Source of the DNA: an uncultured Rhodopila sp.
GTDB lineage: Bacteria; Pseudomonadota; Alphaproteobacteria; Acetobacterales; Acetobacteraceae
Assembly (NCBI GenBank): GCA_903932145.1
Contig: CAIZFE010000004.1
Location: forward strand, 124,001-188,000
Direction of reading: 5' to 3'
DNA: 64,000 nucleotides
A program made the position numbers and the translations under genes. The first letter of the stretch is position 1, and each line of letters starts with the position of its first letter. The notes under the pieces are model-generated. The model searched no databases, had not been told where the DNA came from, and saw nothing but the letters and a program-made list of their open reading frames with translations. Of this stretch, positions 23,167-42,544 are shown in pieces.

Positions 23167-23256
23167 TGGCGGAGAGACAGGGATTCGAACCCTGGGTACG
23201 CTTTCACGCACACACGCTTTCCAAGCGTGCGCCTTAAGCCGCTCGGCCATCTCTCC
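23167..23256 (-). tRNA. tRNA-Ser (GGA anticodon)
   Basis: Read leftward it is a 90-nt class II tRNA. The acceptor arms GGAGAGA and TCTCTCC pair, GGCCGAGCGGCTTAAGGC makes the D arm, the anticodon loop is CTTGGAAAG with GGA, a long variable arm follows, and the T arm holds GGTTCGAATCC. The CCA end is encoded. GGA reads UCC/UCU serine codons. Confidence 0.97.
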
Positions 23257-40053: not shown

Positions 40054-40938
40054 ATGACGAACGAAGAACGCGACATTATCGGCAAGTTCATCGCCCGGGT
40101 TGGCGGCGCAACGCAGTCTTCGGGCTTTGCCGGCGGATCGGTGCCGACAACCCAGCCCGCTCTGCCGCCCATCGACCGGGACGCCGATGCCTTCATCGGT
40201 CAGGCCTTCGCGCAATACCCGGAGGCGCGCTACCGCATAACGCAACTCGCGTTCGTGCAGGAGCATGCGCTGGTCGAAGCGCAAAACCGCATTCAGCGAC
40301 TGGAATGGGAGCTTCAGCAGGCGCAGCAAGCTGTGCAACAAGCCCAGCAAGCCGGCCAGAAGTCAGGCGGCGGCTTTTTAGGCGGTCTGTTCGGCGGCGG
40401 GCGGCAACAGTCGGCTCCGCCCCCGGGTGGCGATCCCCGTTGGGGTGGCCAAGGGGGCGCTGGCCAGGGCGGCGCACCGCAGCAGCCGTATTATCAACAA
40501 TCCGCGCCACCGCCGCCGCAGTATCCGCCGAACTACCAGCAGGGCATGTTCCAGCAGCGCGGCGGCTCCGGCTTCCTGGGGTCGGCATTGACCACGGCAG
40601 CCGGTGTGGCCGGCGGAATGGTGGCCGGCAATGCGCTCATGAGCCTGTTCTCTCCCCACCAGGGCTTTGGCGGCGGTGGCGGGTTTGGCGGGGGTGGATT
40701 TGGCGGGGCGCCAATGGGCGGTAGCCCTTGGGCAACGCCCCCGTCGCAGGACTATGTCGATACCGGCACCTGGGACCAAGGCGGCGCGGCGCCGGCGGGC
40801 AATCAGGATTACGTCGATAACGGCACCTGGGATCAACCGGCCAGCACCGATTCCACTTGGACCGACACCAGCGGTGGCAGCGATAGCGGTGGTGGTTGGG
40901 ACAGCGGTGGCGGCGGTAGCTCCGACGATACCTTTTAG
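40054..40938 (+). CDS. DUF2076 protein with Gly/Gln-rich tail
   Basis: A 294-residue protein. The first ~95 residues are the DUF2076 domain: MTNEERDIIGKFIARVGGA, IDRDADAFIGQAFAQYPEA, RYRITQLAFVQEHALVEAQN and a coiled-coil-like RIQRLEWELQQAQQAVQQAQ. Beyond it the chain is Gly/Pro/Gln-rich, with the one more ordered part FLGSALTTAAGVAGGMVAGN, which could be a membrane-associated helix. There are repeats of the YVDTGTWDQ / YVDNGTWDQ type near the C-terminus. A GAGGGGG site precedes the ATG. DUF2076 proteins are periplasmic-ligand-binding-like in annotation, but a function is not known. Confidence 0.85.
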   Translation: MTNEERDIIGKFIARVGGATQSSGFAGGSVPTTQPALPPIDRDADAFIGQAFAQYPEARYRITQLAFVQEHALVEAQNRIQRLEWELQQAQQAVQQAQQAGQKSGGGFLGGLFGGGRQQSAPPPGGDPRWGGQGGAGQGGAPQQPYYQQSAPPPPQYPPNYQQGMFQQRGGSGFLGSALTTAAGVAGGMVAGNALMSLFSPHQGFGGGGGFGGGGFGGAPMGGSPWATPPSQDYVDTGTWDQGGAAPAGNQDYVDNGTWDQPASTDSTWTDTSGGSDSGGGWDSGGGGSSDDTF

Positions 40939-41032
40939 ACACTTTTCCGTGATGGCCCGGCGCTGAGCCGGGCCACGATGGCGGGTTTCCGCCGAATCGG
41001 AGGCTCCGTAGCGCTGCCGCCGAGTGGCGGAC

Positions 41033-41113
41033 AAAAAAACGGCGGTGCTTTTGGCACCGCCGAAGTTTAGGGAGGAAACGTCCAAGAAAGCAGCGCGCCT
41101 AAGCGCCTCTGCG
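41033..41113 (-). ncRNA. Tandem small-RNA candidate, copy 1
   Basis: Read leftward: a stem GCAG-AGGCGC-TTAG-GCGCG-CTGC, then a single-stranded pyrimidine-rich stretch with TTTCCTCCC, then the intrinsic terminator GGCGGTGCC-AAAA-GGCACCGCC-like hairpin (41041-41061) and seven T. From the first stem to the terminator, this copy is identical to copies 2 and 3 except for a base change in the terminator loop. The exposed CCTCCC is complementary to Shine-Dalgarno sequences. Boundaries are inferred. Confidence 0.6.
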
Positions 41114-41173
41114 AGTTAAAGAATGCGCTTCGTGGGTGCGGCATGCAAGAGGATTCTTGCTGCGGTGCAGCAT
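41099..41173 (-). CDS. 24-codon ORF leading into RNA copy 1
   Basis: ATG at 41173 reads MLHRSKNPLACRTHEAHSLT then RRGA and stops with TAG inside the loop of the first RNA stem. Compared with copy 2 it has two amino-acid changes (R for C, H for C) and two synonymous changes (in the His and Leu codons), which hints at coding constraint. No strong ribosome site is visible. Confidence 0.35.
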   Translation of the reverse strand: MLHRSKNPLACRTHEAHSLTRRGA

Positions 41174-41278
41174 TATTTTGCGGTCTTCGTGATGACGCGC
41201 GACCGGGTCCGAGAGCGGTTTCCCTCGCCAATCAAAAGACCGTTCGATCGTGGGATTTCCAACCCCGGGCGTCCGGAC

Positions 41279-41360
41279 AAAAAAAACGGCGGTGCTTGTG
41301 GCACCGCCGAAGTTTAGGGAGGAAACGTCCAAGAAAGCAGCGCGCCTAAGCGCCTCTGCG
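41279..41360 (-). ncRNA. Tandem small-RNA candidate, copy 2
   Basis: Same layout as copy 1: GCAG...CTGC stem-loop, TTTCCTCCC linker, terminator hairpin GGCGGTGCCACAAGCACCGC at 41288-41308 and eight T. It begins about 246 bp upstream (in transcript sense) of copy 1; the spacer also shows similarity (TTGGAAAT block near 41250-41262 and 41519-41531), so the whole unit was duplicated. Confidence 0.6.
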
Positions 41361-41420
41361 AGTGAGAGAGTGCGCTTCGCAGGTGCAGCATGCAAGAGGA
41401 TTCTTGCTGCGGTGCAGCAT
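41346..41420 (-). CDS. 24-codon ORF leading into RNA copy 2
   Basis: ATG at 41420 reads MLHRSKNPLACCTCEAHSLT then RRGA, ending with TAG in the first RNA stem, like copy 1. The bases before the ATG are a run of A without a clear ribosome site. It could be a real micro-peptide or a regulatory leader ORF. Confidence 0.35.
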   Translation of the reverse strand: MLHRSKNPLACCTCEAHSLTRRGA

Positions 41421-41547
41421 TTTTTTTGCGATCATCGGTAGGGACGTCAAACAAGGTCGCGCCCGGTCTGCGGACAGTGTCCACCCCGGCCAATAGGCCG
41501 TCCGTTCTGGTTCAATCGCGAAATTTCCAATTCCGGGGCGCTCGGAC

Positions 41548-41629
41548 AAAAAAAACGGCGGTGCTTGTGGCACCGCCGAAGTTTAGGGAGGAAACGTCCA
41601 AGAAAGCAGCGCGCCTAAGCGCCTCTGCG
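41548..41629 (-). ncRNA. Tandem small-RNA candidate, copy 3
   Basis: Identical to copy 2 from the first stem through the terminator (stem 41557-41577, eight T). It is the first unit in the direction of transcription; the sequence before it (41690-41765) differs from the spacers of copies 1 and 2. Confidence 0.6.
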
Positions 41630-41688
41630 ACCCAGAGAATGGGCTTCGCAGGCGCAGCATGCAAGGGCTATTTGCTGCGCCGCAACAT
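41615..41688 (-). pseudogene. Leader ORF of RNA copy 3, out of frame
   Basis: The ATG at 41688 gives MLRRSK and then TAG. The unit is one base shorter than in copies 1 and 2, and the later part (LACCACEAHSLGRRGA) is in another frame. So the peptide is not conserved in this copy while the RNA part is unchanged. Confidence 0.35.
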
Positions 41689-41770
41689 GCTGGAGTCGCT
41701 TCGTTCATCGTGTTGCATAAACGCCACATATTTAGGCAGACCCTAACACGACCCGCCGACCGCCTTCGTA

Positions 41771-42544
41771 TTAGGCAGAATTCGCCTGTAATGCCTGGGT
41801 TATGCCCACCACGGTTCCGAGGCTGTTCGCCATATCGGTCGGGATCAACACCGTCGTCCCGCGTTCCTTGTTCATCTCGTATAGCAAATTCATTTGCCGC
41901 AGCTTCAATGCGTTGGGATCACTGCCATACAGTTTGGCGGCTTCCAGGATCTGTTCGGCGATCGCCTTCTCGGCCGAGGCCAGCGTCACCCGAGCATCCT
42001 TTTCGCGCTCGGCCTGGGCCTGCCGGCTCATGGCGTCCTGAAGTTCACGCGGAATCGACACGTCCTTGATCTCGACGCTGCTGGCGGTCACACCCCAGGT
42101 AGCGGTTTTCGTGGAAATGGTGACGCGAAGCTGCTCGTCCGCCGTTTTTCGGTCTGACAGCAGCTTGGACAGATCGGTGGCGCCAATCATTTCCCGCAGA
42201 CTGGTCTGGGCGACGCGTTCGATGGCCTCACGGTAGTTGGCGATGCGGACGGCGGCAGCCTCGGCGTCAGCCACCTGCCAGAAGACGATCGCATCGACGC
42301 CCACTGCCACTGTGTCGCGGGTCAGCGCCTGTTCGGCGGTGATCATAGTGGTCTGAATGCGCAGGTCGATCACCTGGGCGACCGCGTCGATCAGCGGAAA
42401 CACCAGGTAGATGCCTGGCCCTTTCACTTTGTGGAAACGCCCCAGCCGCAAAATCACTGCCCGCTGCCATTCAGACGCGATGCGCACCGACCGGACCAGG
42501 ATCAGCACGACGATGACCGCGACGACCAGAAAACCAATACTCAT
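41771..42544 (-). CDS. Slipin (stomatin/SPFH-domain protein)
   Basis: A 257-residue membrane protein: one N-terminal helix (GFLVVAVIVVLILVRSVRIA), then SEWQRAVILRLGRFHKVKGP, the SPFH domain with VIDLRIQTTMITAEQALTRD and VGVDAIVFWQVADAEAAAVR, ATDLSKLLSDRKTADEQLRV, and a C-terminal coiled coil (AMSRQAQAEREKDARVTLAS, AEKAIAEQILEAAKLYG). Slipins make oligomeric rings in membrane microdomains and are often paired with an NfeD-type protease, which is not found beside it. The gene is just upstream of the tandem RNA array, same strand, with 82 bp between its stop and copy 3's ORF; read-through into the array is possible. Confidence 0.92.
   Translation of the reverse strand: MSIGFLVVAVIVVLILVRSVRIASEWQRAVILRLGRFHKVKGPGIYLVFPLIDAVAQVIDLRIQTTMITAEQALTRDTVAVGVDAIVFWQVADAEAAAVRIANYREAIERVAQTSLREMIGATDLSKLLSDRKTADEQLRVTISTKTATWGVTASSVEIKDVSIPRELQDAMSRQAQAEREKDARVTLASAEKAIAEQILEAAKLYGSDPNALKLRQMNLLYEMNKERGTTVLIPTDMANSLGTVVGITQALQANSA

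Follow-up and report, generated by a model that had tools for sequence, protein, structure and literature searches.

The window (the whole stretch of DNA that was analysed, 64,000 nucleotides in length) carries three tandem copies of a 147-nt direct repeat on its minus strand, at positions 41033-41179, 41280-41426 and 41549-41695. Three tandem minus-strand RNA units had been proposed in an earlier note made from the sequence, with intervals of ~246 and ~269 bp, and the start-to-start distances of the repeats were indeed 247 and 269 bp. Each repeat contains a predicted small RNA (sRNA) gene, and the array lies between a DUF2076 gene and a Band 7/SPFH gene. The features of the locus are as follows.

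40054..40938, plus strand: DUF2076 gene, conserved downstream neighbour, convergent with the array (PF09849, E = 3.5e-40)
41033..41113, minus strand: alpha-R8 sRNA gene nearest DUF2076, predicted RNA of ~81 nt with a putative 5' end
41033..41062, minus strand: intrinsic terminator of the copy nearest DUF2076 (terminator scan)
41069..41078, minus strand: UUUCCUCCCU 10-mer of the copy nearest DUF2076
41090..41112, minus strand: 5' hairpin of the copy nearest DUF2076 (fold)
41120..41149, minus strand: putative promoter of the copy nearest DUF2076, -35 CTTGCA at 41144-41149, -10 CATTCT at 41120-41125
41279..41360, minus strand: alpha-R8 sRNA gene, middle copy, predicted RNA of ~82 nt with a putative 5' end
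41279..41309, minus strand: intrinsic terminator of the middle copy (terminator scan)
41316..41325, minus strand: UUUCCUCCCU 10-mer of the middle copy
41337..41359, minus strand: 5' hairpin of the middle copy (fold)
41367..41396, minus strand: putative promoter of the middle copy, -35 CTTGCA at 41391-41396, -10 CACTCT at 41367-41372
41548..41629, minus strand: alpha-R8 (MmgR/suhB) sRNA gene nearest the Band 7 gene, predicted RNA of ~82 nt with a putative 5' end
41548..41578, minus strand: intrinsic terminator of the copy nearest Band 7 (terminator scan)
41585..41594, minus strand: UUUCCUCCCU 10-mer (anti-Shine-Dalgarno core) of the copy nearest Band 7
41606..41628, minus strand: 5' hairpin of the copy nearest Band 7, GCAG-AG-GCGC-UUAG-GCGC-G-CUGC (fold)
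41636..41665, minus strand: putative promoter of the copy nearest Band 7, -35 CTTGCA at 41660-41665, 18-nt spacer, -10 CATTCT at 41636-41641
41771..42544, minus strand: Band 7/SPFH (slipin-like) gene, conserved upstream neighbour of the array (PF01145, E = 8.2e-39)

The order of elements was the same in every unit, namely a palindrome, CTTGCA, 18 nt, CATTCT or CACTCT, the 5' hairpin, the UUUCCUCCCU linker, the terminator stem and a run of seven or eight T residues. As previously claimed, each copy has its own intrinsic terminator, with a 9-bp stem (8 G-C pairs) ahead of the T-run. Eight terminator-like sites were counted on both strands of 40900-41800, compared with a mean of 1.4 in shuffled sequences, and the fold stability of the three copies relative to shuffles corresponded to z = -3.24, -3.79 and -2.95. 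Relative to the first repeat copy, the second was 95% identical and the third 76%. The earlier description of a ~80-bp core, identical except in the terminator loop of one copy, was accurate as far as it went: the copies are identical from TCGCAGAGGCGC through the T-run save for one loop base (A for C in the terminator at 41033-41062), and this terminator also has a T-run of 7, compared with 8 in the others. The DNA between the copies, which had been described as diverged, is so only in part, as approximately 65 bp ahead of each hairpin, containing the promoter-like elements and the palindrome, are conserved to a lesser degree. The putative -35 and -10 elements of all three copies were assigned from conservation, judged by eye, and a sigma-70 consensus scan of 40900-41800 called no promoter.

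All three copies matched the covariance model of Rfam family RF00519 (suhB/MmgR) over its full length (model positions 1-77) and well above its cut-off of 41 bits, with scores of 63.6 bits for the copy nearest the Band 7 gene (41541-41614), 64.1 bits for the middle copy (41272-41345) and 55.7 bits for the copy nearest DUF2076 (41025-41098). A permissive Rfam search of 40900-41800 (up to E = 1) gave no family better than RF00519. The UUUCCUCCCU sequence, exact in all three copies, is the core 10-mer common to alpha-R8 RNAs (PMC12559287). By these matches, the array is three genes of the known RF00519/alpha-R8 family, and the RNA itself is not new; the earlier attribution to a multi-copy alphaproteobacterial sRNA type was upheld, and the suggestion of a new sRNA family was not. 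The alpha-R8 family and its tandem habit were already known, because several alpha-R8 copies, some of them adjacent, are described for many genera (PMC12559287).

The exposed anti-Shine-Dalgarno motif of the earlier reading was confirmed, the 10-mer being largely unpaired, with a mean unpaired probability of 0.73 over 70 genus genes that were selected for having it. The weak hairpin ahead of the 10-mer and the Rho-independent terminator, both expected for RF00519, were present. The Rfam consensus has a 4-bp stem that pairs poorly here, and the 5' hairpin of these copies is a different, longer structure. The RNAalifold consensus of the 70 genus sequences contained the terminator and lacked the 5' hairpin, because the hairpins vary in length and misalign. 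In single-sequence folds, at least five pair openings, counted whether or not they close locally, were present in the first 30 nt of all 70 genus genes. An N-formylglutamate amidohydrolase gene, reported as a neighbour in most species (PMC12559287) and no requirement for an alpha-R8 gene, is not an immediate neighbour of the array, whereas Band 7 and DUF2076 are. Two further RF00519-like matches in the source genome (G000) fell below the cut-off, at G000:C109:1396-1471 (36.4 bits, altered core GUUUCCCCCCC) and G000:C33:27155-27231 (34.3 bits, altered core GCCUCCCUG); these may be diverged or decaying alpha-R8 copies, or chance matches. Elsewhere in the window, a tRNA gene with a long variable arm was located at 23170-23256 on the minus strand (Rfam tRNA, 57.4 bits).

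The RNA was conserved outside its source genome, in samples of the genus, family, order and class. RF00519 was matched in all 33 genomes of the window's genus (32 above cut-off), in 98 of the 120 family genomes (96 above cut-off), in 202 of 299 genomes of the order sample (197 above cut-off) and in 115 of 192 genomes of the class sample (93 above cut-off). An identical 33-nt hairpin-core sequence occurs in seven database records, all of them Acetobacteraceae MAGs, which makes Acetobacteraceae the probable family of the window. The idea that the tandem array is unique to the source genome was rejected, as tandem arrays were found in other genus and class genomes. Copies starting within 300 bp of each other were present in 10 of the 33 genus genomes, with three copies in the window's genome and two observed in G353, G362, G359, G344, G364, G361, G332, G099 and G352, some of them at contig ends. 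Triple tandem alpha-R8 arrays were also observed in another family of the class (L266 in G392 and L268 in G501).

Within the genus, alpha-R8 has two recurrent neighbourhoods, both of which include tandem copies, and further copies sit elsewhere. The Band 7 - DUF2076 locus has three copies in the window's genome, two in G353, G362, G359, G364 and G344 (only DUF2076 was detected in G344), and one in G347, G350, G349, G354, G355, G192 and G356. At the second locus, alpha-R8 lies between genes for a mutY-like protein and a zinc alcohol dehydrogenase; both genes are on one contig in G099, G352, G360 and G265, and the contigs of G361, G332 and G363 each carry one of them. The three window copies have in common a set of differences from both G353 copies (L212), for example GCGCGCTGC in the window for GCGCACTGC. 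This suggests that gene conversion, or a separate duplication, may have taken place.

The earlier note overlooked PhaR-like palindromes upstream of each copy. A palindrome of the form TGCTGC-NNN-GCAGCA is present directly upstream of each -35-like hexamer, perfect in two copies and with one mismatch in the other:

41158..41172, no strand assigned: PhaR-like operator TGCTGC-ACC-GCAGCA (perfect; one of 6 perfect genome sites)
41405..41419, no strand assigned: PhaR-like operator TGCTGC-ACC-GCAGCA (perfect; one of 6 perfect genome sites)
41673..41687, no strand assigned: PhaR-like operator TGTTGC-GGC-GCAGCA (1 mismatch; conserved position)

Sites of PhaR (also called AniA), a repressor that senses PHB, have been described as CTGCNNNGCAG (R. 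sphaeroides) and as YGCRNYGCR with A/T-rich arms (PMC12542648). Two of the window palindromes fit CTGCNNNGCAG and TGCTGCNNNGCAGCA exactly and one fits with one mismatch; YGCRNYGCR also fits, and two of the three copies have A-rich flanks. In S. meliloti, PhaR represses mmgR, and the mmgR site CAATTGTGCACCGCAGCATTA was bound efficiently (PMC12542648). The mmgR site and two of the window boxes have TGCACCGCAGCA in common, with an equal ACC spacer. In the whole 6.66-Mb genome, only six perfect TGCTGCNNNGCAGCA sites were found, two of them in the window array; with one mismatch allowed there were 90 sites, compared with 24 for the reversed pattern.

Promoter regions from related genomes were examined for the same motif. 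The family promoter set was taken from the best-scoring listed matches and a few chosen regions, not from all matches. Loci that did not have both an exact 10-mer and a T-run (L008, L036, L037, L084, L100 and L102), the duplicate L121 and one extra mismatched core were dropped to give 94 genes, and 88 family genes remained once the window's own three copies, two copies from L035 and a record containing Ns had been taken out. Dropped from the genus set were duplicates (L210, L212, L217 and L218), genes with incomplete flanks (e.g. the second copies of L201 and L219, and L227) and genes with no exact 10-mer (e.g. L208, L246-L248 and L251); this set comprised 70 genes, including the three window copies, with several genes per genome. 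The class set consisted of 29 loci from the best-scoring matches, among them L273 without an exact 10-mer, and contained 32 promoters.

Treating genes as unrelated, as all of these promoter-motif counts do, CTGCNNNGCAG was present with at most one mismatch at -200 to -15 of the 10-mer in 74 of the 94 alpha-R8 genes (three of them the window's), compared with 18 of 94 or fewer for nine control palindromes in the same test. The TGCRNYGC core was located at -106 to -81 from the 10-mer in 58 of 70 genus genes (window copies included) and in 60 of the 88 other family genes. Random windows had this core in 221 of 12,200 cases for the genus (1.8%) and 408 of 17,200 for the family (2.4%), and the reversed-pattern controls at -106 to -81 gave 0/70 and 1/88, respectively. 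The spacers of TGCNNNGCA in this interval were RNY in 48/48 genus and 50/50 family cases. A second box near the predicted start was observed in 43 of the 88 family genes and in none of the window copies. At least one box was present in the two tested windows for 69 of the 88 family genes, and 78 had a core anywhere from -125 to -31. No core was found at -106 to -81 in 12 of the 70 genus genes, and none in either of the two tested windows in 19 of the 88 family genes. In the class set, 27 of 32 promoters from other families had a core at -125 to -31, mostly at -80 to -41; random windows had a core in 547 of 5,600 cases (9.8%), and the reversed pattern occurred in 5 of the 32 promoters. The spacers in this set were RNY in 22 of 23. 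In the triple arrays L266 and L268, each of the 6 copies has its own TGCRNYGC core.

At the Band 7 - DUF2076 locus of G362 (L213) and G359 (L214), the first tandem copy has no TGCRNYGC and the second keeps the core, while in G364 (L216) the first copy retains the core with decayed arms. These losses suggest that tandem copies may split between PhaR-controlled and free expression. A second alpha-R8 type, with a linker ending in TGACTGGCG and a different 5' region, was seen at L068, L078, L107, L109, L116 and L117; the PhaR-like core was present in 0 of these 6 genes in the two tested windows, and L116 has one at -78.

The source genome has a phaR gene (one PF07879 match, G000:C98:226112-226294, E = 2.0e-29) and five phasin matches, two of which have TGCRNYGCA within 130 nt of the start. 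Among the 120 family genomes, both alpha-R8 and PhaR were found in 91, neither in 21, only alpha-R8 in 7 and only PhaR in 1, with genomes that had no listed match assigned by elimination (Fisher test, 1.7e-16, with genomes treated as independent, which they are not). The genomes in which neither was found are small (1.9-3.7 Mb for those listed) and could come from one or a few clades. The seven alpha-R8 genomes without a PF07879 match are drafts of 77-96% completeness, and six of these keep TGCRNYGC upstream of at least one readable gene (G034, G039, G065, G075, G094 and G113, with completeness of 82, 87, 96, 77, 96 and 88%, respectively). Examples are the alpha-R8 promoters L281-L283 and L285 (from G065, G094 and G075), which have PhaR-like cores. 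Of the seven, only G009 (94% complete) lacks a box. The boxes in genomes without a phaR match count against PhaR control, as loss of the box did not go with loss of phaR; they could reflect its absence from draft assemblies, or they could need no PhaR or be used by another regulator.

We consider it probable that the array consists of three tandem alpha-R8 units, each with a PhaR-like operator, a promoter and a terminator, which would provide PhaR-controlled doses of an RNA linking PHB to translation. In relatives, PhaR acts as a repressor of mmgR (PMC12542648), and PHB titrates PhaR. With low stored PHB, PhaR would occupy the palindromes and alpha-R8 transcription would be held down; as PHB accumulates, granules would sequester PhaR and all three ~82-nt RNAs would be made. 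With Hfq, their mostly single-stranded CCUCCCU would pair with purine-rich Shine-Dalgarno regions and lower the translation of uptake and metabolic mRNAs, so that intake would be matched to storage, and the triplication would give a higher sRNA dosage. The position given for the S. meliloti mmgR site, with respect to the start site, is 13 (PMC12542648), whereas the window boxes are upstream of the -35 and not near +1; activation, or no effect, is therefore possible.

This location bears on the alternative that the units are alpha-R8 genes in which the palindrome is bound by another regulator or is an activator site, with no PHB-controlled switch. We regard this as rather unlikely. Upstream of the -35 is a usual place for an activator, PhaR binding to the boxes is predicted, and both the box kept by six of the seven family genomes without a PF07879 match and the box lost from the first of two tandem copies in G362 and G359 would agree with such a reading. 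However, the half-sites and the RNY spacer fit the measured PhaR motif, two of the three copies have A-rich flanks, two have the ACC spacer of the S. meliloti mmgR site, and phaR and two boxed phasin genes are present in the same genome.

It is improbable that two of the three copies are non-functional duplicates from recent unequal crossing-over. In favour of it, genomes of the genus have anywhere from 1 to 3 copies at the Band 7 - DUF2076 locus, but all three window copies retain the box, the -35-like and -10-like hexamers, the hairpin, the core and the terminator, and the DNA between them has diverged. It is very improbable that the palindromes are not operators and instead act as intrinsic terminators for plus-strand read-through from DUF2076. 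The scan called 41158-41172 and 41405-41419 terminator-like on the plus strand, and DUF2076 is convergent with the array, but the third box (41673-41687) is absent from the plus-strand terminator-like sites, and the distance from box to 10-mer is near-fixed with other neighbours and in other families, with a spacer that is nearly always RNY.

A new or cuckoo/alpha-r14-type tandem sRNA family, to which the CCUCC-type motif and the tandem copies had earlier been taken to point, is hardly tenable beside the RF00519 scores of all three copies, as CcsR1, the sole cuckoo-type row up to E = 1 in 40900-41800, lay on the other strand and scored 17.7 bits where its cut-off is 65.3. No row appeared in that search for alpha-r14, for which Rfam may have a model. 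Cuckoo/CcsR RNAs resemble the window units in having a CCUCC-type motif and multiple copies. The cuckoo motif CCUCCUCCC sits in hairpin loops, whereas the window units have one UUUCCUCCCU, in the linker, and fall short of the CcsR1 model.

The preferred reading, of PhaR-controlled alpha-R8 units, can be compared with other known systems. MmgR of Sinorhizobium meliloti (RF00519, alpha-R8) resembles the window units in its covariance-model match, terminator, CCUCCC core of the model and PhaR site with TGCACCGCAGCA. It differs in being the sole alpha-R8 RNA of S. meliloti (PMC12559287), compared with three tandem copies in the window. The SisA-D RNAs of Caulobacter crescentus (alpha-R8) have the same single-stranded 10-mer and several copies per genome, but these are dispersed and reportedly have no common upstream motif (PMC12559287), whereas the window copies share the promoter-like region and the palindrome. 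Aided by Hfq, the SisA 10-mer pairs with the sponge CrfA and also with the leader of an mRNA, immediately ahead of its start codon (PMC12559287). AbcR1/AbcR2 (alpha-r15) are also tandem sRNAs with CU-rich anti-Shine-Dalgarno motifs, and partial homology to SuhB RF00519 has been reported for them; they differ in having lengths of 120 and 114 nt, three stem-loops and two anti-Shine-Dalgarno motifs (PMC7143759). AbcR1/AbcR2 were not reported by Rfam in the present search, in which the best-of-clan rule would mask any match from the same clan.

We lean slightly towards a broader proposal, in which alpha-R8 would be a class-wide arm of the PhaR carbon-storage regulon, with PhaR operators at a small number of favoured promoter positions across Alphaproteobacteria. 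Lineages would tune output by amplifying the complete operator-promoter-RNA unit in tandem, a copy would sometimes be freed from PhaR by decay of its box, and the window would be a three-dose version. A limited search found no earlier mention of a class-wide PhaR signature at alpha-R8 promoters, and the 2016 phylogenetic and 2018 mmgR promoter papers may contain one. Should the operators be functional, a link demonstrated for a single rhizobial RNA would become general across a bacterial class, and a storage-polymer sensor would drive an anti-Shine-Dalgarno sRNA class-wide. This would also account for increases in alpha-R8 copy number without loss of control, and it gives the simple prediction, testable in culturable relatives, that the sRNA level tracks PHB.

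Predicted pairing was calculated for the phasin mRNAs, which were not outstanding targets, with dG values of -11.5 to -15.6 compared with -10.8 +/- 2.9 for a background of 50 mechanical ORF starts from the window (>220 aa, six frames, some surely not genes). Phasin mRNAs were dropped as direct targets, as no strong pairing was observed. A scan of the genome for the Shine-Dalgarno complement as AGGGAGGA-N2-14-ATG gave 37 matches (two pairs of which overlap), compared with 10 for the reversed pattern, an excess that may reflect only purine-rich Shine-Dalgarno sequences. The 30 matches listed with loci were inspected, and some of their ORFs resembled ABC-transporter components, as judged by eye; no target is claimed from these.

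Of the four perfect boxes outside the array, two are inside an ORF and two are near likely gene starts, as judged by eye among the matches listed. One of the latter (G000:C65:6175-6189) is near outer-membrane-protein-like and DedA-like ORFs, and the other (G000:C64:21535-21549) is near ndk-like and cysH-like ORFs, all named by eye. From their position, these two boxes might mark possible further PhaR targets.
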